DNA from: a virus
Length of the DNA: 26,855 bases
Direction: 5' to 3' (one strand)
IMG/VR virus record: IMGVR_UViG_3300013137_000709
Location: 1-26,855 of that record
Shown here: positions 2,330 through 20,017 of the stretch, piece by piece
Position numbering within the stretch: the first letter of the stretch is position 1
Layout of the letters: each line of letters opens with the position of its first letter
Position numbers and translations under genes: made by a program
Notes under the pieces: model-generated
Seen by the model: the letters and a program-made list of their open reading frames with translations, nothing else
The model's database searches: none
What the model was told of the DNA's origin: nothing

Positions 2330-2420
2330 GGATAACCTCCGATACGATCATCACGAGTACAAACAGGCCGAGGCAGACCAGCGCGGCGGCGGGATCTTCA
2401 GCCAGTACGCTTGCGGTCAT
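2277..2420 (-). CDS. 47-residue single-span membrane protein
   Basis: The short frame from the ATG at 2420 reads MTASVLAEDPAAALVCLGLF then VLVMIVSEVIHDRF and a basic tail (NRSDHRRSIRHF). It has one membrane helix at about residues 10-29 with a positively charged C-terminus. GAGAGG lies six bases before the ATG, inside the end of the upstream regulator gene, with which it overlaps by 23 bases. A longer reading from 2519 lacks such a site. It precedes and overlaps the 26-residue membrane gene. Function unknown. Confidence 0.55.
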   Translation of the reverse strand: MTASVLAEDPAAALVCLGLFVLVMIVSEVIHDRFTNRSDHRRSIRHF

Positions 2421-2574
2421 TGTCGATCCTCTCGGCTTCTTTCTGCCAAAGATCCCGGTCGATCTGTGATTCAGACTTTCCCAGGATTTGGGCGATCCGC
2501 TTGCGAAGGGCAAGGTCATCGTCTGATAATCTGACTTTCCAGAAATTAGTACGTGGTGAGGTTTTATCTTTCAT
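2398..2574 (-). CDS. ribbon-helix-helix-like early regulator, 58 aa
   Basis: From the ATG at 2574 the frame gives MKDKTSPRTNFWKVRLSDDD then LALRKRIAQILGKSESQIDR and a charged C-terminal helix. A short strand (FWKVRLS), a helix, a GKSES turn and a second helix match the Arc/CopG ribbon-helix-helix layout used by small dimeric repressors. The stretch is also the in-frame 3' end of the HNH frame upstream. A separate start is supported by the promoter at 2581-2609, whose expected transcription start coincides with this ATG. As first gene of the leftward operon it may repress its own promoter. RHH assignment is by pattern only. Confidence 0.6.
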   Translation of the reverse strand: MKDKTSPRTNFWKVRLSDDDLALRKRIAQILGKSESQIDRDLWQKEAERIDNDRKRTG

Positions 2575-2937
2575 GTCTCTATTGTACCCACAATTAGAAT
2601 GCGTGTCAAGAGGCAATATTCCATTAGTACGCATTTCCTTAACCTTTCCCCACCCCCTGCCTTTTTTATCGCGATCCCGATTGTTGTCAGCGGCAGTACC
2701 CAAAAATAGATGCTTTGGATTGCAACAGGGAGGATTATCACAATGGTGACAAATAAACATTCCTTCTGGTATTTCGCCGTTTACTAAAGACCAGGCCTTA
2801 CGGTGGGATAGTGTAATTATCTTATTATCTCTATACCATCCATATCCAGCTATATTCCTTGATCTTTTCCATTCCCAGCAATCATCATCCCCAAGAATAT
2901 TTACTTTATTCCAAAAGTTTTTATTCGGATTATCCAT
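2398..2937 (-). CDS. HNH homing-type endonuclease, fused in frame to the small regulator
   Basis: The N-terminal 100 residues are a phage HNH_3-type nuclease: FWNKV and CWEWKRSRNIAGYGWYRD, then AWSLVNGEIP, then CHHCDNPPCCNPKHLFLGTA with NNRDRD. H64-H65, N73 and H76 form the beta-beta-alpha metal site. Such nucleases cut DNA as free-standing mobile genes. The chosen ATG at 2937 begins the family's usual N-terminus; earlier in-frame starts to 3111 would translate promoter and hairpin DNA. There is no stop after the nuclease domain: the frame runs on through the regulator's promoter and the regulator itself to 2398. The region 2640-3090 is more AT-rich than its neighbours, consistent with recent insertion. 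Confidence 0.8.
   Translation of the reverse strand: MDNPNKNFWNKVNILGDDDCWEWKRSRNIAGYGWYRDNKIITLSHRKAWSLVNGEIPEGMFICHHCDNPPCCNPKHLFLGTAADNNRDRDKKGRGWGKVKEMRTNGILPLDTHSNCGYNRDMKDKTSPRTNFWKVRLSDDDLALRKRIAQILGKSESQIDRDLWQKEAERIDNDRKRTG
2581..2609 (-). promoter_or_regulatory. strong leftward sigma70-type promoter inside the HNH frame
   Basis: On the minus strand TTGACA (2609-2604), a 17-base spacer and TACAAT (2586-2581) match the consensus at 11 of 12 positions. Six bases later comes the ATG at 2574, so the transcript is expected to begin at or one base before the start codon (leaderless or nearly so). The promoter DNA is itself translated as residues LDTHSNCGYN of the HNH frame. Confidence 0.75.
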
Positions 2938-2956
2938 TTTGTATCCTAAAATAGAG

Positions 2957-2996
2957 ACTGCGCTCATGAATGTGTTGAGCCATTCATAAGCGCAGT
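2957..2996 (-). repeat. 16-bp hairpin in the HNH leader
   Basis: ACTGCGCTCATGAATG (2957-2972) pairs with CATTCATAAGCGCAGT (2981-2996) around an 8-base loop. There is one non-complementary position, which becomes a G-U pair in the leftward RNA only. This asymmetry suggests that the minus-strand transcript is the folded one. It ends 20 bases before the HNH ATG. It could limit nuclease expression, as structured leaders do for some homing endonucleases. Confidence 0.6.
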
Positions 2997-3039
2997 TACT
3001 CACAATATTATCGGCGTTGCTCAACCAACGACTATAGTG

Positions 3040-3070
3040 ATTATACCATTTTTTGAGAAATTGGTATGAT
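3040..3070. promoter_or_regulatory. extended -10 promoter (leftward) within a 31-bp imperfect dyad, candidate operator
   Basis: On the minus strand TGGTATAAT (3048-3040) is a perfect extended -10 element for leftward transcription of the HNH gene; no good -35 is seen. The same bases form the left half of an imperfect dyad: ATTATACCA (3040-3048) mirrored by TGGTATGAT (3062-3070). The dyad lies between the two divergent start regions, as phage repressor operators usually do. Binding by the small ribbon-helix-helix-like protein is a guess. Confidence 0.45.
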
Positions 3071-3089
3071 GAGTTTTTGAAAAAGTCGC

Positions 3090-3101
3090 TATAATGTGAA
3101 T
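3090..3101 (+). promoter_or_regulatory. rightward -10 element with start codon at the expected +1
   Basis: TATAAT (3090-3095) is followed by six bases and then ATG at 3102, the same arrangement as at 2581-2574 on the other strand. No convincing -35 is found at the normal distance and no ribosome binding site precedes the ATG. A leaderless mRNA for the sortase-like gene is therefore likely, though unproven. Confidence 0.45.
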
Positions 3102-3569
3102 ATGAAATCAAGAATTGTTTTACTCATCCTCCAGCTTGTCATCGTGCGGGCTTATCTGTTAGGCCAATCATATGATGTTATCCAGCAGCCGCCGGACGGG
3201 AGCGCGTCGGATGATCCAGGAATCATCACGCAATTTACCCCGGCGATTGAGCGCGGATCAATCGTGTTTATCGCACACCAAAACCTGGACGGCGCGGCGT
3301 TCTACGACCTGAAACCCGGTGATGTGATCTGGACGGTAAACGACCGTGGAAAAGCGACTGCCTACGGTGTGACCGAGATAACCGTTTATCAGGTTGCCGG
3401 GGATGTGTATATCAATCAATCGACTGGCGAATATGTACATGTCAAAGACCTTTATGACTGGATTTATGTCAAGGATAACCTTGTTTTGATGACCTGTTAC
3501 GCCGTTGGGGATGATCCAGGCTGGGGCCGGCTTATCGTTATCGCCCGGCCTTTCAGCCGCGCTTATTGA
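3102..3569 (+). CDS. phage-encoded sortase-like transpeptidase
   Basis: The 155-residue protein has an N-terminal hydrophobic anchor (RIVLLILQLVIV, about 4-15) and then a sortase-like catalytic domain. IERGSIVFIAHQNLDG places H59 where sortases have the catalytic His. FYDLKPGDVIWTV is the typical LxxGDxI strand. NLVLMTCYAV puts C132 in the LxTC motif, and WGRLIVIARP supplies R143. All three residues of the His-Cys-Arg triad are therefore present. Sortases cleave sorting signals and join proteins to the wall or to each other outside the membrane. An alternative GTG start at 3096 adds two residues. The gene stands alone between a divergent promoter zone and the holin. No clear sorting-signal substrate is encoded in the window. 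Confidence 0.7.
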   Translation: MKSRIVLLILQLVIVRAYLLGQSYDVIQQPPDGSASDDPGIITQFTPAIERGSIVFIAHQNLDGAAFYDLKPGDVIWTVNDRGKATAYGVTEITVYQVAGDVYINQSTGEYVHVKDLYDWIYVKDNLVLMTCYAVGDDPGWGRLIVIARPFSRAY

Positions 3570-8092: not shown

Positions 8093-8762
8093 AACCATCG
8101 AGCTTGTCCCGGAAGTCAAAGCGCACCTATCAGAGAAGGCGCTTGAATTCCTGAAGTCGATTGAAACCTATAACCGGCAGTTGTGGCAATATACGCTTGA
8201 CCTTTACCGCGGCGGTGATGGCGGCGTGTTTATCGACAAGTTTACCGCGGCCATTGATAACCAGCTCCGCAGGGCATGGAACGAAGGAGCGCGGGCGGTT
8301 GGCGTAGAACCGGAGGACATGACCGAGGATGATCGCAACGAAATCAAGGCTATTATAGATTCTGAGTATGAGCATATCCTTGACCTGGGATCGGCTATCG
8401 AAGGCGCAAGAGATTTATCTCTGGATGAGTTCCGACAATCTTTCAGAAACCGGATCGACCTGTGGGTTTCCAGGTACACCGATGTTATCAACCGGGCAAA
8501 GGTTTACTTTGGCAGTAAGACGCGCCTTGAATGGACGTTGGGAGAGACGGAGCAGCATTGCGAAACATGCGCGGCCCTGAATGGGATTGTAGCCTATGCT
8601 CAAGAATGGGAGCAGGCCGGAGTACATCCGCAATCGCCTCCGAATAACGTATTAGAATGTGGCGGCTGGCAGTGCGATTGTTCACTCACCCAGACAGACA
8701 GGCGCCGGTCTCCGAATGCCTTACAGCGGATTATGGATATTGCGGTGGCAGCTAATTTATGA
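8070..8762 (+). CDS. minor head / head morphogenesis protein (SPP1 gp7-like)
   Basis: The 230-residue protein has a helical N-terminus and a C-terminal Cys-rich module: CETCAALNG (C164, C167), then PPNNVLECGGWQCDCSLTQ (C197, C202, C204). These cysteines and the HPQSPPN loop are the hallmark of the Mu gpF/SPP1 gp7 minor head family, whose members bind the portal and enter the procapsid with it. The start at 8070 is chosen because AAGGCGG lies six bases before it; a TTG six bases upstream is less likely. It overlaps the portal gene by 23 bases. Confidence 0.8.
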   Translation: MLLSELIRTIELVPEVKAHLSEKALEFLKSIETYNRQLWQYTLDLYRGGDGGVFIDKFTAAIDNQLRRAWNEGARAVGVEPEDMTEDDRNEIKAIIDSEYEHILDLGSAIEGARDLSLDEFRQSFRNRIDLWVSRYTDVINRAKVYFGSKTRLEWTLGETEQHCETCAALNGIVAYAQEWEQAGVHPQSPPNNVLECGGWQCDCSLTQTDRRRSPNALQRIMDIAVAANL

Positions 8763-9232
8763 TATCCTTCAAAATACGAGGAATTGAGGAAATAAATAGC
8801 TTTTTTAAGTCGCTGCCAAGAGGGACGATGAAAGCTGCAATAGCCGCATTTACGGAATACCTGCTGGGTGACGAGCGCCATGGGTTGAGACACGCGCCTC
8901 CGCGCAGGACACACGGCCCAATGAACCCTTACCGTTGGCAGACCGAGAAGCAGAGAAAAGCATATTTCGCCTCTAATGGTTTTGGCGGCGGGATTCCTTC
9001 GCGCAGAACCGGGGCGATAAACGCCGGATGGCAGGCATCAAAAGAACCTTACCGGAAAACGGTATTCAATCGGCTGAATTATGCTAAATACGTAATGGGA
9101 GATCGACAGCAAACAGGCCACCTGGTCGATGGATGGCGCAAGGTTGCCAAAGTAATAACTGATAACATGCGCGGCGGTATGCAGAAAGCGCGGGCCGCTG
9201 TTGCCGATTGGATAAAGACGAGAGGTAAATGA
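8759..9232 (+). CDS. putative head-tail completion protein (HK97 gp10-like)
   Basis: The 157-residue basic protein has an N-terminal FKIRGIEEINSFFKSLPRG and a C-terminal block YAKYVMGDRQQTGHLVDGWR followed by a long helix (KARAAVADWIKTRGK). The YVxGdrQtgHxxdGW arrangement is one I associate with phage gp10-like tail-completion or minor tail proteins that help seat the tail on filled heads. It starts with an ATGA overlap to the minor head gene and ends with one to the first glycosyltransferase. It is separated from the other connector genes by more than 6 kb of sugar-modification genes and capsid. Confidence 0.7.
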   Translation: MISFKIRGIEEINSFFKSLPRGTMKAAIAAFTEYLLGDERHGLRHAPPRRTHGPMNPYRWQTEKQRKAYFASNGFGGGIPSRRTGAINAGWQASKEPYRKTVFNRLNYAKYVMGDRQQTGHLVDGWRKVAKVITDNMRGGMQKARAAVADWIKTRGK

Positions 9233-9858
9233 GAATAATCACCTATTACACCAAACGGCGACACTTGAACCAGGCTATCAGGATGCGGAATAGTATCAGA
9301 GATTGGGGATATGACATATCCATCTATACCGATAAGTGGACGCGCAACCAACCGGAATACCAGGAACATAAAGACATATTTGATACTAAACGCGGAGCTG
9401 GATATTGGGCATGGAAACCGCTGATTATCCTGGACGCTCTGAAACTTGACGACGAAATTTTATACCTTGATTCTTCCATGATACCGGTTGATCCACACGG
9501 TATCCGCAGGATCATGGATGGGACGCAAGCGGTAACAACGGCAGATGATTCTATCTGGATTCAAAAACAATGGTGCAAGCGGGATACCTTCGTTTTGATG
9601 GGATGCGATACTGAGGCGTATTGGAATACGCCGTGTATCATGGCTGGTATTCTGTTCGTGAAGCAGGCCGGGAAATGGTTTATCGAGGAATGGCGCGACT
9701 ACTGCCTAAATTACCAGATCATATCAGACCAGCCGTCATCAGGAAACTTTCCAGAATTTCAGGACCACCGGCACGACCAGGCTATTTTGTGCAACCTGGC
9801 AACAAAGTATGACATCCCGCGAGTGAAGCTGCAAGGAGAGATAATAGACAGGCCATGA
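9229..9858 (+). CDS. GT-A type glycosyltransferase
   Basis: The 209-residue protein has the simple alpha/beta layout of nucleotide-sugar transferases. An N-terminal strand (RIITYYTKRR) is followed by FDTKRGAGYWAWKPLIILDA (residues 51-70), a GxGYWxWKP signature of small GT-A enzymes in polysaccharide loci. EILYLDSS (76-83) then provides the metal-binding acidic turn, and DHRHDQAI (179-186) resembles the C-terminal His-Asp pair. It would transfer a sugar from a nucleotide donor in the cytoplasm. Translation is coupled to the tail-completion gene by ATGA. Donor and acceptor are not predictable. In this place virion proteins are the natural candidate acceptors. Confidence 0.75.
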   Translation: MRIITYYTKRRHLNQAIRMRNSIRDWGYDISIYTDKWTRNQPEYQEHKDIFDTKRGAGYWAWKPLIILDALKLDDEILYLDSSMIPVDPHGIRRIMDGTQAVTTADDSIWIQKQWCKRDTFVLMGCDTEAYWNTPCIMAGILFVKQAGKWFIEEWRDYCLNYQIISDQPSSGNFPEFQDHRHDQAILCNLATKYDIPRVKLQGEIIDRP

Positions 9859-9971
9859 GATACAAACCGAACTTAGTCCGAGATGATGGCCAAACCACAG
9901 ATATACATTATGGTTGGTGTCAGTCGATAAAGGATTTTATAAAGATAATAATTGACATTATTAGCTCCTGA
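9855..9971 (+). CDS. 38-residue ORF, possibly remnant of a gene cut by the HNH insertion
   Basis: It starts in an ATGA overlap with the glycosyltransferase and reads MRYKPNLVRDDGQTTDIHYG then WCQSIKDFIKIIIDIISS before a TGA. The first 25 codons have neighbour-like base composition. The remainder (from about 9930) turns sharply AT-rich, like the endonuclease gene that follows. This suggests the start of an older coding sequence whose 3' part was lost or displaced when the mobile gene arrived. It may also be a functional small protein. I cannot name the parent gene. Confidence 0.45.
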   Translation: MRYKPNLVRDDGQTTDIHYGWCQSIKDFIKIIIDIISS

Positions 9972-9983
9972 AACGAGGCTTAT

Positions 9984-10277
9984 ATGAGGATTACAAGAAA
10001 AGAAGAAAAGCTGCGATATAAATATAAAATTACAGAAGAAGAATACTGGAAAATTTCAGAAGCCCAAAATCATGTTTGTGCAATTTGTGGCAGTGAAGAA
10101 TTAAATAAACTTCTTGCTGTTGACCACGATCATATTACTGGAGAGGTAAGAGGTCTATTATGTACCAGGTGTAATATTGGGTTAGGATGTTTTCGCGATA
10201 ATGTTGAATTATTAAATAGGGCAATTTTATATTTAGATGAATATTATCACTATGAAATACATAACGGAATAATATGA
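9984..10277 (+). CDS. endonuclease VII-type HNH nuclease (free-standing mobile gene)
   Basis: The 97-residue protein matches the Endonuclease_7 family: VCAICGSEE (C32, C35), AVDHDHITGEVRGLLC (D47-H50, R56, C60) and CNIGLGCFRDN (C63, N64). The cysteines bind the structural zinc, and the DHDH/N residues form the active site that nicks branched or specific DNA. It is clearly more AT-rich than the flanking genes and separates two glycosyltransferases. Both facts point to recent acquisition as a homing-type element. A resolving role before packaging is possible but less likely here, given the location. Confidence 0.85.
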   Translation: MRITRKEEKLRYKYKITEEEYWKISEAQNHVCAICGSEELNKLLAVDHDHITGEVRGLLCTRCNIGLGCFRDNVELLNRAILYLDEYYHYEIHNGII

Positions 10278-10308
10278 AACCTTAAAATACGATTTAGGAA
10301 ATTATTAT

Positions 10309-11100
10309 ATGACCAAAATAACCTTTATGGTAAATGTCCACAACGAAGAGCCGAGGGTTGACTACATCCTGAAGCCGGCCGTCAAGTGGGCTGATGAAGT
10401 GATCATCATTGACAAAGGATCAACCGATAGAACCGTAGAGATTGCGGAATCTTATGGCGCTAAAATATTCCAGGTTGGAGAATCTCCAGAGGGCGACGAC
10501 GACCGGGAGACATGGGTAAATTTTGCCTCAAACGATTGGATATACTGGGGCACGCCGTCCGAGATACCGACGCGGACGTGTATTGATGCCTGCCGCGAAA
10601 TGGCTAACGGAGATTACGACCTGATAACCGTTCCGCGTAAAATGTATATGCTGGGCGTTCATTCTGCTAATTCGCCATGGTATATATCGCACTACAGATT
10701 TTTATTTAACCGCACGAGAACGATTGTAAAGAATAAGATTCATCAAAACTTCGCTGCCAAATATGGAAAGATCGGGCATGTTCCATATTCGCCGGAGTGC
10801 TGCGTTTATCACCTGACGTATACATCCGGTAAATATTGGATAAATACGATGGTCGATTACTGGCAGACAGAGGCGAAAAACTCAACCAACCCGGAAGAAG
10901 ATATAAGCAAATGCTTTGCTTCGATTCAACAGCACGAGGCTAAACTTCGCGCTGGTGGCGAAGAAACCAGGCTACTTCATCTCGCATGGACGTTATACCA
11001 CATTGGAACAGCCTTTTTCCTTGAGGAAAAGCGCAGGGGAATGGATATAAAATCAGAATATAAGAAAATTTATGATCAAATATTGAAGGAATGGGAATGA
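10309..11100 (+). CDS. family 2 glycosyltransferase
   Basis: The 263-residue protein starts ITFMVNVHNEEPRVDYILKP and continues WADEVIIIDKGSTDRTVEIA (residues 27-46), the nucleotide-binding half of GT2 enzymes like WaaE. At the spot where relatives have a DxDE-type metal site, it reads NDWIYWGTPSEIP (75-87), so the usual acidic pair is replaced. The middle carries LITVPRKMYMLG and YRFLFNRTR, typical of the acceptor half, and the C-terminus is helical (IGTAFFLEEKRRGMDIK). It is probably a transferase acting in the cytoplasm. The altered metal site may mean an unusual mechanism or weak activity. Its stop overlaps the next ATG. Confidence 0.8.
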   Translation: MTKITFMVNVHNEEPRVDYILKPAVKWADEVIIIDKGSTDRTVEIAESYGAKIFQVGESPEGDDDRETWVNFASNDWIYWGTPSEIPTRTCIDACREMANGDYDLITVPRKMYMLGVHSANSPWYISHYRFLFNRTRTIVKNKIHQNFAAKYGKIGHVPYSPECCVYHLTYTSGKYWINTMVDYWQTEAKNSTNPEEDISKCFASIQQHEAKLRAGGEETRLLHLAWTLYHIGTAFFLEEKRRGMDIKSEYKKIYDQILKEWE

Positions 11101-11738
11101 AATATCCTATCGTTTCAACGTGCCAGATCAGATGCCTACCAGACATCCTTGAATGGGCGTTCGGTGATACCGTCGGCTTTTTTGTGGAGTTGGGCGCGTA
11201 TGACGGCGTTCATTATTCAAATACTTATGGCCTTGCTTTTCGTGGCTGGCCGGGGATGTATATTGAGGCCGACAGGGCGTTATACCATAAATGCCTGAGT
11301 AATCATATTATGCACGACGGCGTGATCGTAGAGTATGCCTGCGTAGGAACTGGTAAAGAAGTTGATTTTTACGAGGCCGGGGAATATTCCAGCGCATCGA
11401 AACAGTTTATTGATTCCGCACCGAAAACATGGGTCGCGAAGTTTGCACCACCGGTGAAAACAAAAACCGTATTATTGGATTACTTGCTGGAAAAGCATAA
11501 CGTTCAGCGCGTGGATCTGTTATCGGTCGATACGGAAGGAACGGAAATAGATGTTCTCAACGGCTTTTCGATCAAGAAATGGAAACCGCGCCTTGTGATC
11601 GTAGAGGCGCACGAACAGCACCCCCGCGCTGAATTGCGTGTGAACGCCCCAGAGATAAACAGGTATTTTGATATTGCCGGATACAAGAAAATCTATTCTG
11701 ACGAGTTGAATAATATATATCTCAAGGAGCAGGAATGA
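11097..11738 (+). CDS. FkbM-family SAM-dependent methyltransferase
   Basis: The 213-residue protein shows the FkbM pattern: VGFFVELGAYDGVHYSNTYG with SAM-binding motif I at 31-37, then MYIEADRALY (acidic residue for the SAM ribose), and VDLLSVDTEGTEIDVLNGF (139-157), the family hallmark. FkbM enzymes O-methylate sugars or secondary metabolites. The start at 11097 is taken because GAAGGAATGGGA lies just before it and because it gives an ATGA overlap with the glycosyltransferase; an ATG six bases upstream is possible. Within this cassette it would cap or modify a sugar, which often affects recognition. Confidence 0.85.
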   Translation: MKYPIVSTCQIRCLPDILEWAFGDTVGFFVELGAYDGVHYSNTYGLAFRGWPGMYIEADRALYHKCLSNHIMHDGVIVEYACVGTGKEVDFYEAGEYSSASKQFIDSAPKTWVAKFAPPVKTKTVLLDYLLEKHNVQRVDLLSVDTEGTEIDVLNGFSIKKWKPRLVIVEAHEQHPRAELRVNAPEINRYFDIAGYKKIYSDELNNIYLKEQE

Positions 11739-12217
11739 TACCTGGTGTAGAAATCGGAGAAATTGTAGCGCATGCCGATGAACGCGGATGGATGGCTGAA
11801 TTATCTCGTTCAACCGATTACATCCAGGATAATTTATTCTTTTCAAAACAGGCGGTATTGAGGGGGCTTCATATCCAGCCGATACATCCGCAGGGTAAGT
11901 TATTTATTCCCATAACGGGAGAGATTTATCAGGCTGTGGTGGATTGCCGTCCGTTTTCTCCGACGTTTGGCCGGTGGTATGGAAGCATAATCAGGGTTGG
12001 GTCGTATATGATAACGCCGCCGGGATGTCTTACCGGTACGCTTGCGCTTGTCGATTCGATGGTATTCTACCGGACAACGGAATATTTTTATCCTGGCGAG
12101 TCAATAACGATTGCGTGGAATGACCCGGCGCTTGGGATAGAATGGCCTATACCGTGTCCCAGGCTGAAACAGGAAGACGAGAACGGTAAATCATTCAAGG
12201 AGGTTTTCGGTGGTTGA
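11735..12217 (+). CDS. RmlC-like dTDP-sugar epimerase (cupin)
   Basis: The 160-residue protein follows dTDP-4-dehydrorhamnose 3,5-epimerase: VLRGLHIQPIHPQGKLFIPI (H46 is the catalytic-type His), VVDCRPFSPTFGRWYG, ITPPGCLTGTLAL, FYRTTEYFYP and WNDPALGIEWP (128-138). RmlC acts on dTDP-4-keto-6-deoxyglucose. Here the normal PxGxAHGF loop reads PPGCLTG, so the second His is lost, while the Tyr region (Y112 or Y117) remains. It may be a related epimerase, isomerase or non-catalytic sugar-binding cupin. ATGA coupling ties it to the methyltransferase. No other genes of a dTDP-sugar pathway are present, so the donor would come from the host. Confidence 0.75.
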   Translation: MIPGVEIGEIVAHADERGWMAELSRSTDYIQDNLFFSKQAVLRGLHIQPIHPQGKLFIPITGEIYQAVVDCRPFSPTFGRWYGSIIRVGSYMITPPGCLTGTLALVDSMVFYRTTEYFYPGESITIAWNDPALGIEWPIPCPRLKQEDENGKSFKEVFGG

Positions 12218-12761
12218 TATTGTCGAAGGTTTTGAGGACATGGTAATTTATGACGATAAAGGAATGGGAATAAAGGGCGATGCCTTGATCGGGCTGGCTA
12301 AAATACATAATCCGCGCGTCTTTGTTGAAACGGGTACATACGCCGGCGAAATGCTGAAATACGTCATGGCAGGTTATAAATTCGATAAGGTTTATTCGAT
12401 CGAACTATCAGAGAGACTGGCGGCCAGGGCTAAAAAGCTATTTGCCGATGATCCAACCATAACCATCATGCAGGGCGATAGCGGCGAGATGCTGAAAGCC
12501 ATCCCGCAGGACGAACCTATTTTATACTGGTTGGATGCTCACGCCTGCGGCGGTGTGACTGCAAGGGGAAAGAAGATAACGCCTATTCTTGAAGAATTGG
12601 AAACCGTTGTAAACGAAATGAATCACATCATCGTTATTGATGACATTGATAACCTTCCGCGCTGGGGCGTGACATACAATCAATTGACATCTTTCATCTC
12701 TGGTAGAAAGAAAGTAAAATATACGGATATTTTTACAATGCTGATAGTCGAGCCGGAATGA
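12210..12761 (+). CDS. class I SAM-dependent methyltransferase
   Basis: The 183-residue protein begins at a GTG with AAGGAGG six bases upstream. Motif I is VFVETGTYAGEMLKYV (39-47 region). KVYSIELSERL supplies the acidic residue at the end of strand 2. ILYWLDAHACGG (104-115) and IIVIDDIDNLPRWG (140-153) resemble the acidic active-site strands of metal-dependent O-methyltransferases such as cephalosporin hydroxylase/macrocin-type enzymes. This suggests methylation of sugar hydroxyls. It overlaps both neighbours and belongs to the glycan cassette. The exact acceptor is unknown. Confidence 0.75.
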   Translation: MVDIVEGFEDMVIYDDKGMGIKGDALIGLAKIHNPRVFVETGTYAGEMLKYVMAGYKFDKVYSIELSERLAARAKKLFADDPTITIMQGDSGEMLKAIPQDEPILYWLDAHACGGVTARGKKITPILEELETVVNEMNHIIVIDDIDNLPRWGVTYNQLTSFISGRKKVKYTDIFTMLIVEPE

Positions 12762-13429
12762 TCACAGCTATCATATCTGCCTATTACGCGAAGCAATATA
12801 TAAGGCGCAGGCTGGAGAACCTGACTTCTCTTGAGATTACACCGGAGATAGTTGTAGTAGCGCAGGCGGGGAGTTACGAGGCAGAGATTGCAAAAGAATA
12901 CACCGACATCGTTATAAAAACAGAAAACATTCCGACGATATACGAGGCCTGGAATATCGCTATCCAACACGCGACCGGCGAATATATCACCAACGCGAAC
13001 TGCGACGATTACACTTATCGGGGATCATTATCAAAACTAGCTGGCATGCTTGATAAATATCCAGGCGTTGCGCTGGTTTATGGTGATAATTTTATTGTCG
13101 ATGGCGATAGGAAAATATACCATTGCCGGAAGTACGGCGATTATGAATTCCTGAAAACATGCTGCTTTGTCGGGCCGATGCCGATGTGGAGAAAGTCTTT
13201 ACACGATAAATACGGATTGTTTGCAGACCAATACCAGGTATGCGGCGATTATGAATTTTGGCTGCGGATTGCGTCCCACTCTGAAATAATATGCAAAGCG
13301 GATGTTATTGTCGGGGAGTACTCCAAAAGGCCGGATTCGGCCGAACACAGAAACCCGCAGCTTGCGCAGGATGAAAAAAACTATATCCAATCGTTTTATC
13401 GCCCTATTGCATTACGGGATAAAATATGA
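12758..13429 (+). CDS. family 2 glycosyltransferase
   Basis: The 223-residue GT-A enzyme starts ITAIISAYYAKQYIRRRLEN. It has a canonical donor-binding half with ATGEYITNANCDDYTYRGSL (72-91), where C82-D83-D84 is the metal DxD-like turn. VALVYGDNF, GPMPMWRKSLHDKYG and VCGDYEFWLRIA (161-172) follow, the last carrying the ED-type catalytic base region of GT2. It uses nucleotide sugars on a cytoplasmic acceptor. It is the last gene of the cassette and is followed, after a 138-base structured leader, by the protease-capsid gene. Confidence 0.85.
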   Translation: MITAIISAYYAKQYIRRRLENLTSLEITPEIVVVAQAGSYEAEIAKEYTDIVIKTENIPTIYEAWNIAIQHATGEYITNANCDDYTYRGSLSKLAGMLDKYPGVALVYGDNFIVDGDRKIYHCRKYGDYEFLKTCCFVGPMPMWRKSLHDKYGLFADQYQVCGDYEFWLRIASHSEIICKADVIVGEYSKRPDSAEHRNPQLAQDEKNYIQSFYRPIALRDKI

Positions 13430-13452
13430 TAGTATTTTTATAATTGTATAAC

Positions 13453-13547
13453 GGTTTTAGCCTGAGGTGGTTGCCGGAAGCTGAAACCTGCGCTTGTCAA
13501 AGGATTTTGAGAGCCGAAGTAGAAACTCGCATAGAGTTTGCTTTGGC
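13453..13547 (+). promoter_or_regulatory. structured leader of the capsid gene with two stem-loops
   Basis: GGTTTTAGC (13453-13461) pairs with GCTGAAACC (13480-13488) with one G-U. A second hairpin, GCCGAAGTAGAAACTC (13513-13528) with GAGTTTGCTTTGGC (13534-13547), has a wobble, a small bulge and a TTTTCTT run, giving it the look of an intrinsic terminator. Nine bases after that run comes the GGAGG of the capsid gene. A TATAAT at 13439-13444 could be a -10, but no -35 is seen. The leader may separate cassette expression from capsid expression by attenuation or RNA processing. Confidence 0.5.
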
Positions 13548-13567
13548 TTTTCTTATTGGAGGTGAAC

Positions 13568-15424
13568 ATGCCTTATATGGTTCAAAAAGACGGTGACAAA
13601 TACTGTGTTCATAAGAAAAACGCCGACGATTCAGCCGGCGAGACTATCGCTTGCCATGAAACAGAAGAACAGGCTAGCGCGCAAATGAGGGCTTTGTACG
13701 CCAACGAGGATAAATCCCTCATATTCTATGGGGATTCCGTAAAGGCCCTGGGCGAAGGAAAAGTGGCCGGATACCTGGTTCGCTTCTCAAACGAAAAAGA
13801 CACCGACCTTGAGGCCGATTACTTCACCAAGGAAACTGAGTGTGGCGTGATTAACGGCTCTTCCCTGCCAGTTTTTTATCAGCATGGCATGGATGAAATT
13901 GTCGGGATCAAATCCATAGGCAGAGGAACGATTAAAACCGATGACATTGGCCTCTGGATCGAAGCTCAACTAAATATGCGCTCTGAATACGAAAGGGCCA
14001 TTTACGAACTCGCCAAACGTGGGAAGTTGGGATGGTCATCGGGCGCTGCCGAACACCTCGTAGAAAGGGAAGAAGTTGGCAAGGCGTTTGTCATCAAATC
14101 CTGGCCGATTGCTGAGGCCAGCTTGACACCAACACCCGCAGAACCGCGCAATAGCGCTATTCCAATCAAATCGTTAGTAACCGCGTTGTCGGTGGATGCC
14201 GAAACGGAGGAGCCTATTATCGTTAATAAGGAGTCTGAAATGAACGAAGATGAAATCAAAGCGATGACCGAGAGCATCGCAAACGCGGCCGCTATTGCCG
14301 CGGCTGATCTTGCGGTAAAAAAGTACATCGAAGAACAGGCGCCGGAAGTCAAGGGCGGCTTCGATGTTGAAGTGGTTGACGATGAAGCCGACCGCGCCGC
14401 AAGGATGAACCCCTTCAAATCTGCCGGCGAGTTTTTCAAGGCCGTCAAGGTTGCTGGGGAATCACCCTCTGAAACCGACAAGCGCCTGCTTTCTTTGAAG
14501 GCCGCTTCCGGTATGAACGAGGCCGTACCTTCCGAGGGCGGTTTCCTTGTTCAGCAAGACATCGCAGGGGGAATCCTCCAGAATATGTGGAGTACTGGTT
14601 CTGTGTTGTCCCGCTTTACCCCCGTTCCTGTTCAGGGTAACGGCATGGTGTTCAACGTGGTTGACGAGACATCGCGCTCCGACAGTTACCGCATGGGTGG
14701 AATCCTGGGCTACTGGCTGGCCGAAGCTGGAACTAAAACGGTTTCAACGCCGAAGTTCCGTCAGTTGTCCATGAAGTTGAAAAAAGTGGCCGCTCTCGCT
14801 TATGCGACTGATGAACTGCTTGAGGACGCCTCTGCGCTTGAAAGCTGGCTGACTACCAATGTACCGGATGAACTCCGCTTCCAGACCGAAGCCGCGATTA
14901 TGAACGGTAATGGCATTGGAAAGCCCATGGGCATCCTGCAATCGCCTGCCCTGCTCCAGCTTGCCCGCGTTGACGCCAACGAGATCGACGCTACCGACAT
15001 CGCCAATATGTGGGCGCACCGATATGCTGGCGCGAATGATTATGTCTGGTTTATTTCCAGCACAATCTTCCCGCAGTTGGTCAATCTGACTATCGGAGAT
15101 TCTCCGATGTTCTTCCCGGCCGGTGGCTTGGGTGGTTTGCCTTACGGTACTATCCTGGGGCGGCCCGTGATCGAAACCGAGTATAACCCGTCCCTGGGCA
15201 TTCTCGGTGACATCGTATTGGCTTCTCCATCGCAGTATAAGGTGATCACCAAAGGCGGTATCCAGTCTGCTTCCAGCATCCATGTTAAATTCACCACTGA
15301 TGAAACTGCCTTCCGGTTTGTGTACCGGGTTGATGGTGAACCTGCCTGGAACGGTACGGTTACCAGCTACTATGCTTCCAGCGACTACATTTCGCCGTTT
15401 GTTGCCCTTACCGCATCTTCATAA
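13568..15424 (+). CDS. prohead protease-major capsid protein fusion (HK97 fold)
   Basis: The 618-residue protein has three parts. Residues 1-48 (MPYMVQKDGDKYCVHKKNAD...) are a small domain often appended to phage proteins. Residues about 49-205 are an S78-type prohead protease, with H106 in VFYQHGMDE and S157/S158 in GKLGWSSGA. Residues about 225-300 form a helical scaffold-like delta region, and about 310-618 are the HK97 capsid fold (NEAVPSEGGFLVQQDIAGGI, GNGIGKPMGILQ, TILGRPVIETEY). The protease would cut the delta region during maturation. The start at 13568 is fixed by GGAGGTGAAC. A strong internal start is annotated at 14240. Confidence 0.9.
   Translation: MPYMVQKDGDKYCVHKKNADDSAGETIACHETEEQASAQMRALYANEDKSLIFYGDSVKALGEGKVAGYLVRFSNEKDTDLEADYFTKETECGVINGSSLPVFYQHGMDEIVGIKSIGRGTIKTDDIGLWIEAQLNMRSEYERAIYELAKRGKLGWSSGAAEHLVEREEVGKAFVIKSWPIAEASLTPTPAEPRNSAIPIKSLVTALSVDAETEEPIIVNKESEMNEDEIKAMTESIANAAAIAAADLAVKKYIEEQAPEVKGGFDVEVVDDEADRAARMNPFKSAGEFFKAVKVAGESPSETDKRLLSLKAASGMNEAVPSEGGFLVQQDIAGGILQNMWSTGSVLSRFTPVPVQGNGMVFNVVDETSRSDSYRMGGILGYWLAEAGTKTVSTPKFRQLSMKLKKVAALAYATDELLEDASALESWLTTNVPDELRFQTEAAIMNGNGIGKPMGILQSPALLQLARVDANEIDATDIANMWAHRYAGANDYVWFISSTIFPQLVNLTIGDSPMFFPAGGLGGLPYGTILGRPVIETEYNPSLGILGDIVLASPSQYKVITKGGIQSASSIHVKFTTDETAFRFVYRVDGEPAWNGTVTSYYASSDYISPFVALTASS
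14228..14242 (+). promoter_or_regulatory. internal ribosome binding site and start for free capsid protein
   Basis: AAGGAG (14228-14233), a six-base spacer and ATG (14240-14242) lie in frame at M225 of the protease-capsid fusion, exactly at the junction after the protease domain. Translation from here gives 394 residues: scaffold-like delta region plus capsid. This would supply many capsid subunits per protease, as head assembly needs. Confidence 0.65.
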
Positions 15425-15441
15425 GAAAGGAGGATTATACT

Positions 15442-15939
15442 ATGTGTAATGGAATCCGTTTTGGCGAAGGATTAAAAGTCCTCCCCGTTTTGGCTCCGAT
15501 TGCCTTCACTACCTCAGCTATCGACACGGAAGCAGTGGATATGAACGTCAATCATTGGGCCACCTTCCTGGTGCAGTTCGGCGCTATGACTTCTGATAGC
15601 ACCGATACCGTGACCGTGACTGTGCAGTGCTCCAGCGTCGATACCAGCGCCACAGGTAGTGATATCGCGTTCAAGTATCGCCTTTCATCGGCGGTTGATA
15701 CCGACCTGATGGGCGCGATTACCGACGCGGATACCGACGGTGTTGCCGTTACCGCCGAGGATGACGCGAAAATGCTTATCATCGACGTTGACGCGAACGC
15801 GCTGCCGGCCGCGAAGTCAGACGGTCGTTATGTTGGGTTGACCATTACCCCATCTGGGGAGATGGCAAGCGGCGTTGTTGGTGTGATCGCCGTGCTTGAG
15901 CCCAGGTATCCGGGTAATGCTATTCCTTCCTCCTCGTAG
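15442..15939 (+). CDS. putative head decoration / capsid-stabilising protein
   Basis: The 165-residue protein is a predicted all-beta protein with many Thr, Ser, Asp and Val residues (TSDSTDTVTVTVQCSSVDTS, ADTDGVAVTAEDDAKMLIID) and a loose C-terminus (YPGNAIPSSS). It has no enzyme motif. AAAGGAGG precedes the ATG. A small acidic beta protein directly behind the capsid gene is normally a decoration protein that binds capsomer centres or threefold sites. The Ser/Thr-rich surface would also make a plausible glycosylation target for the upstream transferases; that is inference. Confidence 0.65.
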   Translation: MCNGIRFGEGLKVLPVLAPIAFTTSAIDTEAVDMNVNHWATFLVQFGAMTSDSTDTVTVTVQCSSVDTSATGSDIAFKYRLSSAVDTDLMGAITDADTDGVAVTAEDDAKMLIIDVDANALPAAKSDGRYVGLTITPSGEMASGVVGVIAVLEPRYPGNAIPSSS

Positions 15940-15953
15940 TTGTTACTGGTAGG

Positions 15954-15983
15954 TTTTGGGGGGAGCTAATCCTCCCCCCAAAA
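15954..15983. repeat. perfect 12-bp hairpin after the head genes
   Basis: TTTTGGGGGGAG (15954-15965) pairs perfectly with CTCCCCCCAAAA (15972-15983) around a 6-base loop. No downstream U run follows in the rightward direction. The AAGG ribosome binding site of the connector gene begins at the last bases of the right arm. It probably protects the capsid mRNA 3' end or lowers translation of the connector, giving the large copy-number step between capsid and connector. Confidence 0.7.
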
Positions 15984-15993
15984 GGAATCATAT

Positions 15994-16635
15994 ATGGCAG
16001 ATTATTGCTCAACTAGTGACGTAAAAGCCGATATGCCAGACAGCGGCCTGGCAAGCTCCACCGATACAACGTATGACACCGCTATCGGTGGTTTTATAAC
16101 CGCAGCTTCCAGGATGATTGACAAACTGGTAGGGCGCGAGCCTAACTGGTTTTCATCAACCGATTCCGAGACGCGGTACTATGATGGCACCGGCGAAGTC
16201 ACCCAGGACATCGACGAGTGTCATGCACTGACAAGCGTTTCAATAGCAGATACTGGCGGTACTTCCTCAACGTCTTACGAAACCATTACACTGGATACAG
16301 ATTACTACGTCTGGCCTTATCAATACGATCAACTTGGATTGCCCATAACCAGGCTGATTATGGACTGGAACGGGGATGAATACATCTGGCCGCGCTTCAG
16401 GAAGTCGGTCAGAGTAGTCGGTCAGTTTGGGTATTCTGCAACGCCTCCAGAAGATATAAAACTGGCCTGTAAGATACAAACCGTTCGCTGGTTTGCAAGG
16501 GCAAAGCAGATGTATCAGGATTCGGGCGCGTCTACTCCTATGGGGTCTCTGATATATTCAAAATTCATCGGGAAAGACCTTGATCCGGACGTGAAAATGC
16601 TGTTATCAAGCTACGTTATAGGGAACATGGTATGA
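15994..16635 (+). CDS. head-tail connector (gp6-like)
   Basis: The 213-residue protein has the phage connector pattern. The N-terminal MADYCSTSDVKADMPDSGLA and FITAASRMIDKLVGREPNWF are helical and contact the portal. A beta middle (ETRYYDGTGE, YETITLDTDYYVWPYQYDQL) ends in VVGQFGYSATPPEDIKLACK, a very common gp6-like motif, and a C-terminal helix (IQTVRWFARAKQMYQDSG). It would form the ring closing the portal after packaging. Its start is preceded by AAGG at the base of the strong hairpin, and its end overlaps the tail terminator gene by ATGA. Confidence 0.8.
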   Translation: MADYCSTSDVKADMPDSGLASSTDTTYDTAIGGFITAASRMIDKLVGREPNWFSSTDSETRYYDGTGEVTQDIDECHALTSVSIADTGGTSSTSYETITLDTDYYVWPYQYDQLGLPITRLIMDWNGDEYIWPRFRKSVRVVGQFGYSATPPEDIKLACKIQTVRWFARAKQMYQDSGASTPMGSLIYSKFIGKDLDPDVKMLLSSYVIGNMV

Positions 16636-17057
16636 GCATAGTTGATACTACTGTTCAAAGGATACAGAAAATTGCGCTGGCGTGTGAAGGCATCAAGGCT
16701 GCACCGGATTACCCCACCGATGACGCTGGCGTATTACCATTGGCTATCTCTCATATTACGGCTGGAAATGTCACGCAAGTAAACGCCACAGACACAAAGT
16801 TTATGGCGACCATTACCACGGATATTCACTTCGACCGCGGCGTATTGCGGTTGACATACCAGAAAATTGACGCGCTGATTCCTGATTTTATTCAAAGGCT
16901 GGGCGGCGATCCGACCTTGAATAGCTCCGTTTCAACCATTCAATACCCCATCAATTTTACGGTAGGGCCGGCTCAATGGGATTCTATTGTTACCCAAATG
17001 GTAAGTTTTCAAATAAATGTTAAATTCAATTTGCTTTCTCCAACGGTGACTGCATGA
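16632..17057 (+). CDS. putative tail terminator / minor tail protein
   Basis: The 141-residue protein has an N-terminal helix (VDTTVQRIQKIALACEGIKA), a conserved-looking loop (YPTDDAGVLPLAISH), strands (TKFMATITTDIHFDRGVLRL) and a C-terminal beta segment (SFQINVKFNLLSPTV). This size, fold outline and place between connector and tail tube are those of siphophage tail terminators, which cap the tube and join it to the head. No decisive motif is visible. It overlaps both neighbours by ATGA. Confidence 0.65.
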   Translation: MSIVDTTVQRIQKIALACEGIKAAPDYPTDDAGVLPLAISHITAGNVTQVNATDTKFMATITTDIHFDRGVLRLTYQKIDALIPDFIQRLGGDPTLNSSVSTIQYPINFTVGPAQWDSIVTQMVSFQINVKFNLLSPTVTA

Positions 17058-18172
17058 AAGATATTCTGGTTATCATGGGTTCTCATCCAGGTACACGCGG
17101 ACTGTTTGACTGGACGCGTGAGGATTGCGATATTGTCGTTTTCAATGAAGCCATGAAAATGGACTGGGTAAAACGGGCTGATTATGTTATGCAGATGCAT
17201 GTTCCAACAATCTGGCAGAACCCCGGAAACAGAAACGACCCAAATCATTATAACTGGTTGAAATCCGGCGAAACCCCCGTTATCTGGATGCAAGAGAAAT
17301 ATGACGATGTTCCAAAGTCGAAACGGTATCCGATTGAGAGGGTTTTGAAAATAAGCAACCGGAAATACATCACATCATCGGCAGCATATTCGATTGCCCT
17401 GGGTATCCATTTGGGATACCAGAAGATTGAGATTTACGGCGTTGAAATGGCAACTAATACCGAGTATGTCCACCAGCGCCCCGGCGTTGCGTACTGGATC
17501 GGTATAGCGGATGCCCTCGGTGTGAACGTGGAATTTCACGGTGATCTGATGACATGCCCTCTTTATGGCTACGAGGGGAATATAACATTTCCTTATACAT
17601 TTTTCGAGGAACGCTTGGCAACACTTGAAAAGTCCGCAGACGAGGCAAAGCTCATATATAACAAGGCAAGCGAAGTTGCCAACAACGCCATAGCGGAATA
17701 TATGGAAACTGGCGTAAATAATAAGATTGATGTATTGATGCAGAAGGCCGTGGAACAGGCCGCAGCTTTTGGTTTGCAGGACGGAGCGAGGCAGGAAATA
17801 CTACGCTACAAGAAGAAAGCCGATGTGCAAATCGAAGCGACCGGCGACTTTCTATTTTCCCGCCAGGAATTTGAACACGCCGGAACTTCTTTATTCAAGG
17901 AGCGGGAGCGGGCGATTGTAAAATCAACCGAGTTTGCTAAAAAATGCGGCGGAGCGTACACGGCATTTATAAATACCCAAAACCCAGGTAAAAAGAAAAA
18001 CCGGCTTGATCAATTTACCGCGGCAGTTTTCGAGTATGTCCAATCGTCTACGAAAGTGGGGATGTTTGACGGCGCCATGAAAGAAAACCGTTATCTTATG
18101 GCTAAACTGGATGAACTTATCAGGATGGCCGGGGGCGCTGAGTCGGAACGGGTATTATTGGAGGCGAGATGA
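17054..18172 (+). CDS. DUF115/GT42-like transferase domain with long helical tail
   Basis: Residues 1-180 form a Rossmann-like domain. The start DILVIMGSHPGTRG is a nucleotide-binding-type loop. RKYITSSAAYSIALGIHLGY (residues 103-122), then KIEIYGVEMATNTEYVHQRP, resemble the SSxxxxIALAxxLGYxxIxLxGxD core of MptE/DUF115 and GT42 sialyltransferase-like enzymes. Members of these groups transfer nonulosonic acids or are Maf-type flagellin glycosyltransferases. Residues 185-372 are predicted helix and coiled coil (FFEERLATLEKSADEAKLIY and onward), an unusual addition that may bind a structural partner. It sits between tail terminator and tail tube genes with ATGA overlaps on both sides. Confidence 0.6.
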   Translation: MKDILVIMGSHPGTRGLFDWTREDCDIVVFNEAMKMDWVKRADYVMQMHVPTIWQNPGNRNDPNHYNWLKSGETPVIWMQEKYDDVPKSKRYPIERVLKISNRKYITSSAAYSIALGIHLGYQKIEIYGVEMATNTEYVHQRPGVAYWIGIADALGVNVEFHGDLMTCPLYGYEGNITFPYTFFEERLATLEKSADEAKLIYNKASEVANNAIAEYMETGVNNKIDVLMQKAVEQAAAFGLQDGARQEILRYKKKADVQIEATGDFLFSRQEFEHAGTSLFKERERAIVKSTEFAKKCGGAYTAFINTQNPGKKKNRLDQFTAAVFEYVQSSTKVGMFDGAMKENRYLMAKLDELIRMAGGAESERVLLEAR

Positions 18173-19014
18173 GAGTAGGAAGAAATCCGCTCACCAACAA
18201 AACCATGGCGGAAACGTCCGATAAAGTCGCGGCGGTTATTACGCATCTTCCAGATATGGATGGGTATCACGAACATAGGCTGGATGTCATCAAGGCGTGT
18301 CTTACGACTATGCGGACTGGGGCGCCTGGAATACCTGTTATAGTATGGGATAACGGGTCATGCGAAGAGCTACGAAGCTGGCTGATAAATGATTTCAAAC
18401 CGGAGACATTGATCCTATCCCCGAATGTGGGAAAGAGTAATGCCAGATATTCCATCTTCAGGATGATGCCGGACTGTATCGTTTCCATGTCAGATGACGA
18501 CATGCTTTATTATCCCGGTTGGTTTGATGCCTGCCTTGAACTACTGACAAGTTTCCCTGAAGTTGGTAAGGTTTCCTGCTATCCCGTCCGCACTCAAGGA
18601 CGCTGGGGCTGTTCAAATACAAAGGCATGGGCAAAGGACAACGCCAAACTTGAGGCCGGGCGGTTTCTACCAGATGAGTATGATTATGATTTCTGTACAT
18701 CCATCGGGAGAGATTATGACTGGCATAAGGAATACTCGAAACTTGATATTGATTACCGCGTGACATATAAGGGATTACAAGCGTATTGCTACGCCCATCA
18801 TTGTCAGTTTATGGCCCGCGCCGGAACGATTATCCCATTTTTACAAAAGAGCACCGATTGTATGGCCGATGAGAAGCCATTTGATAACGCCGTGAATGAT
18901 GCTGGATTGTTGCAGCTTACAACGGTACAAAGATACTGCAGGCATATCGGGAATGTGATTGATACGAAAGTGTATAACGAAATAGCTCTGATTCAGGAGA
19001 AAACTAATGGCTAA
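18169..19014 (+). CDS. GT-A glycosyltransferase with DDD motif
   Basis: The 281-residue protein has an N-terminal strand (VAAVITHLPDM), the nucleotide-binding IPVIVWDNGSCEELRSW (55-71), SPNVGKSNARYSI and MSDDDMLYYPGWFD (107-120). The run D109-D110-D111 is the metal-binding DxD. The remainder (SCYPVRTQGRWGCSNTKAWA; a C-terminal helical section) would be the acceptor half. It is a GT2-like transferase. GGAGGCGAG precedes the ATG, and ATGA overlap links it to the DUF115-like gene. It ends overlapping the tail tube gene, so it lies directly before the protein it may modify. Confidence 0.85.
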   Translation: MRVGRNPLTNKTMAETSDKVAAVITHLPDMDGYHEHRLDVIKACLTTMRTGAPGIPVIVWDNGSCEELRSWLINDFKPETLILSPNVGKSNARYSIFRMMPDCIVSMSDDDMLYYPGWFDACLELLTSFPEVGKVSCYPVRTQGRWGCSNTKAWAKDNAKLEAGRFLPDEYDYDFCTSIGRDYDWHKEYSKLDIDYRVTYKGLQAYCYAHHCQFMARAGTIIPFLQKSTDCMADEKPFDNAVNDAGLLQLTTVQRYCRHIGNVIDTKVYNEIALIQEKTNG

Positions 19015-20017
19015 TGGTATAAAATCTTTACGTCAAATTCAGATGAGCCGGGAAACCACCCAGGGAACGCCTACGTCTGATTATTATGTCTGGCGCGGTA
19101 TTGGAATGCTTGAGGATGCAAGAGAATCTGTATTCCCAGAAGAGGACATCGGCTTGTTTGGTGGTGGTGATAGGAACTATTTTCCGAAGCTGGCAGCAAA
19201 CCTTGAAATGGATGAAATAGAGGCTACTTACGAACAGCTCCCGATGATCCTGGATGCCGCTATTCATACGGCAACACCGACGACAGACACCGGCTCTGCG
19301 TATGTCAGGACATATACTTGGCCGATTGAATCATCGGACGCGAAAAGTTCAACCGACCTTACCACATACTCATTCAAGACCGGTGATAATAACGAGGTTG
19401 AAAAATTTAGCTTCGGGTATGTCAAGGAATTCGTATTATCCGGTAACGCCGGTGAGGCGTGGAAGATTCAACCGACCTGGGACGGGCGTGAAGTCGCGTC
19501 TGATAGTGACGGGTTTGAAGATGCCACGCTGCAGACCGTTGAAGACATGCTGTTCTCGAAAACAAAACTATATATTGACGAAACATCAGACACTATTGGA
19601 ACCACTCTGGTTAGCGATACGCTGATCAACGCAACCCTTACGGTTACAACCGGATGGCAAGGTGTTATGACCGCGTCTGGCAGGCTTGACTTCTCGTTCC
19701 TGAAGCAGGTCATGCCTGAAATCAAACTTGACCTGACATTTGAACACAACGCGACCGCAACAGCAGAAAAGGCCAAGTGGCGGGCGAAAACTGCCAGGCT
19801 GTTGAGGCTGTTATGCGAGGGCGATGCCGTTGCAACATCTGGTACATATACCTATAAAACTATGATTATCAATCTTGCTGGAAAGTGGGATACCTTCGAG
19901 AAGATCGACGAGATCGACGGTAACGACGTTGTTACCGGGCATTTTATATCACGGTATAACTCCACTTCTGGGATATTCGGTTCGATGGTCGTGGTAAACG
20001 AAACATCTGCATATTAG
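19007..20017 (+). CDS. major tail tube protein
   Basis: The 336-residue protein starts GIKSLRQIQMSRETTQGTPT and is then strand-rich: ANLEMDEIEATYEQLPMILD, SYSFKTGDN-like turns, VSDTLINATLTVTTGWQGVM and ARLLRLLCEGDAVATSGTYT. This resembles phage tail tube proteins with a phi13-type beta-sandwich core. Hexamers stack to form the DNA conduit. Its place, before the frameshifted chaperone and the tape measure, is the invariant siphophage order. It is Ser/Thr-rich and preceded by glycosyltransferase genes. CAGGAG lies upstream of the start, which overlaps the glycosyltransferase stop by 8 bases. Confidence 0.85.
   Translation: MANGIKSLRQIQMSRETTQGTPTSDYYVWRGIGMLEDARESVFPEEDIGLFGGGDRNYFPKLAANLEMDEIEATYEQLPMILDAAIHTATPTTDTGSAYVRTYTWPIESSDAKSSTDLTTYSFKTGDNNEVEKFSFGYVKEFVLSGNAGEAWKIQPTWDGREVASDSDGFEDATLQTVEDMLFSKTKLYIDETSDTIGTTLVSDTLINATLTVTTGWQGVMTASGRLDFSFLKQVMPEIKLDLTFEHNATATAEKAKWRAKTARLLRLLCEGDAVATSGTYTYKTMIINLAGKWDTFEKIDEIDGNDVVTGHFISRYNSTSGIFGSMVVVNETSAY

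Follow-up and report, generated by a model that had tools for sequence, protein, structure and literature searches.

The stretch analysed here (the window) comprises positions 1–26,855 of the 26.9-kb IMG/VR record IMGVR_UViG_3300013137_000709, which derives from an uncultured tailed virus of bacteria. The ORFs proposed in an earlier note on this DNA were recovered, and the placement of glycan genes among head and tail genes described in that note was confirmed: they alternate with genes for the neck, for a fused protease-capsid protein, and for the tail tube (Table 1). The glycan genes form cassette 1, or slot 1 (C1a–C1f, positions 9229–13429), and cassette 2 (C2a and C2b, 17054–19014). The Rfam and tRNA scans were both empty, and the promoter scan yielded a number of sites not above that in shuffled sequences.

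Table 1. Genes identified in the head-tail region of the window
Gene product	Position	Strand	Evidence
Neck/tail-completion-like protein	8759..9232	+	phrog_5, E 9e-4; stop overlaps C1a start (ATGA)
C1a, putative GT-A-type glycosyltransferase, slot 1	9229..9858	+	motif reading only
Endonuclease VII/HNH, slot 1 insert	9984..10277	+	PF02945, 1e-26
C1b, GT2-like glycosyltransferase, degenerate DXD (WGTPSE)	10309..11100	+	PF00535, 4.7e-7; dN/dS 0.05
C1c, FkbM-family methyltransferase	11091..11738	+	PF05050, 6e-21; TIGR01444 over cut-off; dN/dS 0.05
C1d, RmlC-like dTDP-4-keto-6-deoxysugar epimerase	11735..12217	+	PF00908, 2.5e-31; dN/dS 0.04
C1e, SAM methyltransferase-like, weak assignment	12210..12761	+	PF13578, E 0.027; dN/dS 0.075
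C1f, GT2 glycosyltransferase	12758..13429	+	PF00535, 1.2e-11; 40–43% to L083 and L037
Fused S78 protease + HK97 major capsid protein	13571..15424	+	PF04586, 4.8e-9; PF05065, 5e-37
Putative decoration protein, candidate acceptor	15442..15939	+	constant capsid-gene neighbour
Head-tail adaptor	15994..16635	+	phrog_442, 7e-11
Putative tail completion protein	16632..17057	+	conserved position only; no family match
C2a, CstII/GT42-like N-domain + C-terminal helical bundle, candidate protein glycosyltransferase	17054..18172	+	AlphaFold/Foldseek; dN/dS 0.06
C2b, GT2 glycosyltransferase, invariant DDD motif	18169..19014	+	PF00535, 3e-5
Tail tube protein	19007..20017	+	AlphaFold pLDDT 87; Foldseek

ATGA overlaps are present at positions 9229, 11735, 12758, 17054, and 18169. 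The ATGA coupling proposed earlier therefore holds at these five junctions, but three others (11091, 12210, and 19007) are overlaps of 8–10 bp, and 141 bp separate C1f from the capsid start at 13571, the leader in this gap being strongly folding (z −3.6). Because of this gap, cassette 1 is coupled to the upstream neck gene and not to the downstream capsid gene. The gene behind cassette 1 does encode the capsid protein, although as a fusion with an S78 protease; this fusion and the endonuclease VII gene within cassette 1 are absent from the earlier note. No family was matched by the putative decoration protein, which has 55 homologues, almost every one encoded immediately 3′ of a capsid gene. 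The proposed tail tube was confirmed by its fold, the best Foldseek match being the P74-26 tube (TM 0.72, E 1.4e-12), with T5 pb6 also matched (1.9e-6).

C1b, C1f, and C2b scored 30.3, 45.3, and 24.4 bits, respectively, against PF00535, all above the curated cut-off of 23.3 bits. The DDD motif of C2b is invariant across nine aligned homologues and the N-x-D-D motif of C1f is conserved in three sequences, whereas C1b carries WGTPSE where a DXD motif is expected, both in the window phage and in its near relative L001. C1d scored 109 bits against PF00908 (cut-off, 27); in an alignment with 1rtv, it retains the His, Lys, and Asp that we take to be the active-site residues of RmlC, one His being replaced by Thr. 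Against the NCBIfam rmlC equivalog, its score was 107.2 bits, below the cut-off of 155.75. Pfam searches thus substantiated the transferase, methyltransferase, and RmlC-like content previously attributed to cassette 1, with matches to GT2, FkbM, and dTDP-sugar epimerase families, but the C1e assignment is weak and C1a is without a family match. For C1a, no credible match was obtained in Pfam, PHROG, NCBIfam, or PDB (one sub-threshold PPR_2 match); homologues are present in Prochlorococcus phage P-TIM68 (35%) and in giant phages, and its putative glycosyltransferase function was read from motifs. Equivalence of C1e to the MT24 genes of relatives was not detectable.

C2a was recovered from about 47 IMG/VR loci and adjoins the capsid-decoration module in nearly all of them. 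No Pfam, PHROG, or NCBIfam family was matched. The AlphaFold model (pLDDT 92.3) predicts a CstII-like N-domain followed by a C-terminal helical bundle, and CstII accounted for the top three PDB matches of the N-domain in Foldseek (1ro8, E 1.1e-3, probability 1.00), a modest match in which TM is about 0.3 relative to the query and 0.5 relative to the target. Of 23 invariant residues, 22 lie within the N-domain; its catalytic residues could not be matched, and the best sialyltransferase profile match was non-significant (E 0.47). C2a thus resembles the GT42 sialyltransferases CstI and CstII in fold and in this best, non-significant profile match, but differs from them in its additional helical bundle. 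The earlier assignment of this protein as DUF115/GT42-like is therefore retained for GT42 by fold but not for DUF115: none of 39 C2a members matched the PF01973 profile, and a profile-profile comparison with DUF115-like neighbours gave no significant result. In several relatives, a distinct DUF115-like gene is present in addition to C2a, and only such genes were hit in genome scans. In the Maf flagellin glycosyltransferase (pfam01973), a CstII-like domain is likewise followed by a C-terminal helical bundle (PMC11339370). Unlike Maf, C2a is without the Maf N-terminal domain and its gene adjoins capsid genes, not flagellin genes; no Maf structure was found among the structure matches listed.

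In the comparison of the window with L001, the glycan genes within L001 coverage showed dN/dS values of 0.038–0.104, indicative of strong purifying selection; these genes are therefore neither chance ORFs nor decaying. The maximum 19-residue hydropathy of the cassette proteins was 1.21, i.e. they are without membrane segments. Embedding in the virion operon, soluble products, purifying selection, and confinement to the head-tail region are consistent with late expression and virion modification.

The distribution of these genes was compared among relatives of the window phage (contigs L001, L024, L036, L037, L083, L122, L131, and G024, among others). In 25 related records, GT2 was matched 34 times, in every case within the portal-to-tail-tube interval or, on incomplete contigs, by head genes. 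C2b, recovered from 34 contigs, is located before the tube gene in 16, in the decoration-adaptor interval in nine, and upstream of neck or capsid genes in three. Homologues of C1f occur in seven other contigs; six of these have the gene immediately before C2b, and the seventh has it ahead of the neck gene. The neighbours of C2b in L122 and L131 are RmlD-, FkbM-, B12/radical-SAM-, NTP-transferase-, and GT34-type genes, and slot 1 of G024 contains a sugar C-methyltransferase gene. A C2a-MT24-C2b block moves together among relatives. DNA methyltransferases occupy slots in L036 and G024, and endonucleases are also present in slots. Since enzyme families switch slots among relatives, a single pathway distributed over insertion slots seems a better description of the two cassettes, and pairing of each cassette with a target by co-occurrence was rejected.

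The C2a gene neighbours the decoration gene more often than the tail tube gene, and the strongest distance correlation of C2a is with the decoration protein (r 0.87, or 0.76 with the capsid taken into account); this may hint at the acceptor, but physical linkage produces an equal signal. Decoration proteins of phages with C2a were not significantly enriched in Ser/Thr (0.196 versus 0.178, p 0.10), and this comparison is confounded by phylogeny. GT2 was undetected in 41 of 50 C2a records, many of which are fragments, so C2a might act alone or serve another role.

We consider it somewhat better than even (probability roughly 0.55) that both cassettes constitute one virion-glycosylation pathway distributed across insertion slots of the head-tail operon. 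Virion proteins would be glycosylated with host nucleotide sugars in the cytosol late in infection. C2a would start the glycan by transferring a sugar from a nucleotide sugar made by the host onto Ser/Thr of an abundant virion protein; the decoration, capsid, and tube proteins are candidate acceptors, and gene order does not set the choice among them. The GT2 proteins C2b and C1f, and possibly also C1b and C1a, would extend the glycan, the FkbM protein and C1e would methylate it, and C1d would alter the sugar, a C-methyltransferase holding the corresponding place in G024. The glycan may shield the particle or tune adsorption. C2a is the most constant member of the pathway. A more tentative proposal, to which we give slightly less than even odds, is that C2a represents a phage-dedicated, Maf-like protein O-glycosyltransferase family, fixed at the capsid-decoration genes in a widespread lineage of uncultured siphophages; on this model, coating would be near-core to virion assembly, and swappable glycosyltransferase, methylation, and deoxysugar genes would produce a phage-specific glycan coat.

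Phage glycosyltransferases and RmlC homologues are frequently annotated with roles in serotype conversion or superinfection exclusion, and RmlC requires a host-made dTDP-sugar, PF00483 being absent in 10 records. Both points would suit enzymes acting on host surface glycans and not on the virion. We regard this as unlikely, because GT2 was found nowhere outside the structural operon in the related records and C2a is constantly linked to the capsid-decoration module. Without membrane segments, the cassette proteins also include nothing GtrA/GtrB-like, i.e. no GtrABC-type membrane flippase or membrane-bound transferase. A comparably low probability is assigned to C2a functioning in the virion or its assembly, with its transferase-derived fold in a structural role, the remaining genes being unrelated passengers in recombination-prone slots. 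Its near fixation at head genes, mostly without detected GT2, and the DNA methyltransferases and endonucleases in the slots point in that direction; however, its invariant polar residues concentrate in the CstII-like domain, the passengers are overwhelmingly glycosyltransferases, methyltransferases, and sugar-nucleotide enzymes, and C2a, MT24, and C2b move jointly.

The earlier note proposed that each cassette modifies the protein behind it (cassette 1, the capsid; cassette 2, the tail tube). The gene arrangement of the window recurs in L001, that of cassette 2 also recurs in L024, and distances of C2b track those of the tube gene (r 0.85), but the differing slots of enzyme families, the coupling of slot 1 to the neck gene, and the more frequent position of C2a after the decoration gene make such dedicated targeting improbable; the virion-operon glycan genes stand, and the cassette-by-cassette pairing is not supported. 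Glycosylation of hypermodified phage DNA is highly improbable: viral glycosyltransferases acting on DNA are known and the slots of L036 and G024 also contain DNA methyltransferase genes, but thymidylate synthase/hydroxymethylase (PF00303) was found in none of 18 records, many incomplete, and the epimerase, FkbM, and sugar C-methyltransferase genes suit NDP-sugar chemistry.

Phage virion glycosylation itself has been described in few isolates, with effects on recognition by antibodies; the C2a family and the island architecture appear to be undescribed so far. In mycobacteriophages Che8, Corndog, and Myrna, virions are glycosylated, and phage-encoded glycosyltransferases probably act on the capsid and tail tube, according to Freeman et al. 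(2023) as cited in PMC12363180 and PMC12619734. The window phage likewise encodes glycosyltransferases, but as a candidate modification system within the head-tail operon, together with an epimerase, methyltransferases, and C2a. C1d belongs to the same Pfam family as RmlC of large Escherichia coli and Synechococcus phages (33–38% identity), most of which are 80–210 kb in size, whereas C1d is encoded in the neck-capsid interval of a 26.9-kb record.

If the single-pathway reading is correct, virion glycosylation can be a swappable island built into the head-tail operon, and C2a would serve as a marker gene for spotting such islands in viral metagenomes. Being small and soluble, C2a would also be a convenient candidate for a protein glycosyltransferase, with few potential acceptors, and the benefit of particle sugar to small phages would become a testable question. 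Among GenBank phages in the searched collection, C2a was found in only one and C2b in none, and a search of a genome collection for prophage relatives of C2a, which could have indicated a host, yielded none. Capsid relatives were found in Chloroflexi and Anaerolineales MAGs (52 and 42%), a similarity too weak for host assignment, which was rejected. The endonuclease VII gene interrupts cassette 1, and its dS between the window and L001 is 0.02, compared with 0.18–0.68 in its slot-1 neighbours.

The whole window is a virus record of 26,855 bases, and no bacterial genome surrounds it. Its head-tail operon is siphophage-like and encodes TerL, portal, MuF-like, neck, fused protease-capsid, decoration-like, head-tail adaptor, tail completion, tail tube, and tape measure proteins. 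No tRNA genes or Rfam matches were found in scans of the window. The glycan genes named in the earlier note are present, in two slots of this operon, and the protein behind the second slot is indeed the tail tube, as its AlphaFold model matches the P74-26 tube (E 1.4e-12, TM 0.72). The ATGA coupling proposed for the head and tail genes holds in part: most genes are joined by ATGA or short overlaps, but a 141-bp gap containing a strongly folding leader lies between slot 1 and the start of the capsid gene.

Features of the window
Feature	Position	Strand	Content or basis
HNH_3-type homing-like endonuclease gene	2398-3111	-	
Slot 1	9229-13429		Putative GT-A-type protein (C1a), endonuclease VII, GT2 (C1b), FkbM methyltransferase, RmlC-like epimerase, weakly recognised methyltransferase (C1e), second GT2 (C1f)
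38-codon ORF	9855-9971		ATGA overlap with the C1a end; possibly a detached C1a tail
Endonuclease VII gene	9984-10277		In slot 1
Untranslated leader upstream of capsid gene	13428-13570		More stable fold than 200/200 shuffles, z -3.6
Hairpin	15954-15983		Perfect, 12 bp, GC-rich, without T run; between decoration and head-tail adaptor genes
Slot 2	17054-19014		C2a (without family match), GT2 (C2b)

A search with C2b returned 34 contigs, whose gene maps, as we read them (near-identical contigs included), place the gene directly before the tube gene in 16, between the decoration and adaptor genes in nine, upstream of the neck or capsid gene in three, and elsewhere in three more distant relatives; the contig ends after C2b in the remaining three. 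Six contigs have a homologue of C1f, a slot-1 gene in the window, directly upstream of C2b, and a further contig has one ahead of the neck gene. The order C2a, DUF115-like, Methyltransf_24, C1f, and C2b recurs in relatives, some phages lacking certain members; homology of these Methyltransf_24 genes to C1e was not detectable. The slots have further contents in other contigs: L037 has genes of radical-SAM, methyltransferase, DUF115-like, and GT2 type ahead of its neck gene, L131 has a B12/radical-SAM protein, NTP transferase, FkbM, and GT2, and L122 has a GT34-like and an RmlD-type gene. Such shuffling of one enzyme set among structural-operon slots argues against the suggested pairing of each cassette with the virion protein behind it, which was not borne out.

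Cytosolic modification of virion proteins is favoured over that of the host surface or DNA by the operon position, the absence of membrane segments from the cassette proteins, the mapping of all 34 GT2 matches in 25 related records into head-tail operon slots with none elsewhere, and the absence of thymidylate synthase-type enzymes from 18 records, many of them incomplete. The presence of RmlC without RmlA implies a host-supplied dTDP-sugar. For mycobacteriophages, work cited in PMC12363180 and PMC12619734 reports that the capsid and tail tube are glycosylated by phage-encoded enzymes. No description of the island or of C2a was found in the literature searched, whose coverage left out most subscription journals.

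C2a has no fitting family in Pfam, PHROG, or NCBIfam. Its AlphaFold model (39 sequences, mean pLDDT 92.3) comprises a Rossmann-like domain (1-165) and a long-helix bundle (181-359), and its top three PDB matches are CstII, a GT42 sialyltransferase (E 1.1e-3, probability 1.00). The best PDB match of the N-domain profile is also a sialyltransferase, at a non-significant score, and the N-domain carries 22 of the 23 invariant residues. According to PMC11339370, Maf flagellin glycosyltransferases combine a CstII-like pfam01973 domain with a C-terminal helical bundle. The predicted C2a model therefore looks Maf-like in plan, although C2a falls outside PF01973 and the 50 PDB matches listed include no Maf structure; we regard it as a candidate protein glycosyltransferase. 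An alignment search identified C2a homologues at 47 IMG/VR loci, nearly all adjoining capsid-decoration genes in profile-based gene maps; among labelled neighbours, the order decoration-C2a-adaptor was counted in 26 and tail-completion-C2a in eight. GT2 was detected in only 9 of 50 C2a records tested, many of which are fragments. Distance correlations, which are confounded by linkage, weakly point to the decoration protein as the partner of C2a. Among 50,697 GenBank phages, a homologue was found only in Microcystis phage Mvi-Yong1342-1; this protein (XAN61349.1; L091:8908-9711, PP496355.1) matches the N-domain and is annotated as 'type 11 methyltransferase', and its gene adjoins the terminase small subunit gene.

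The capsid search identified the relatives L001 (92%), L002 (49%), and L003 (44%). In L003 and L002 the capsid gene directly follows the neck gene, and slot 1 is thus an insertion site. The tube search identified a further relative, G024/L024, which retains C2a (62%) and C2b (60%) ahead of the tube gene; identity to the window is 73-77% for its tube and decoration proteins and the C-terminal part of its capsid protein. Since the neck gene of G024/L024 is followed by different genes, for an NDP-hexose C-methyltransferase and a DNA methyltransferase, slot 1 content is exchangeable, with sugar tailoring in both phages alike.

Against L001, dN/dS values of the glycan genes (0.038-0.104, including C1b with its degenerate DXD motif) fall within the range of the structural genes (0.050-0.244); C1a lies outside this comparison because L001 begins downstream of it. 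The short endonuclease VII gene has a dS of 0.02 (82 codons), whereas its slot-1 neighbours have 0.18-0.68; this low value suggests a recent transfer or exchange, such as a homing-type endonuclease would undergo. In the relative L132, the slot between the neck and capsid genes holds a GIY-YIG/NUMOD3 homing endonuclease (2101-2811), indicating that this slot attracts mobile elements too. Homologous DNA N6/N4-methyltransferases (53% identical) occur in different glycan slots of two contigs (L036:3152-3754 and L033:5972-6592), and an intein splicing domain lies within the MuF-like protein of L083 (7247-8680).
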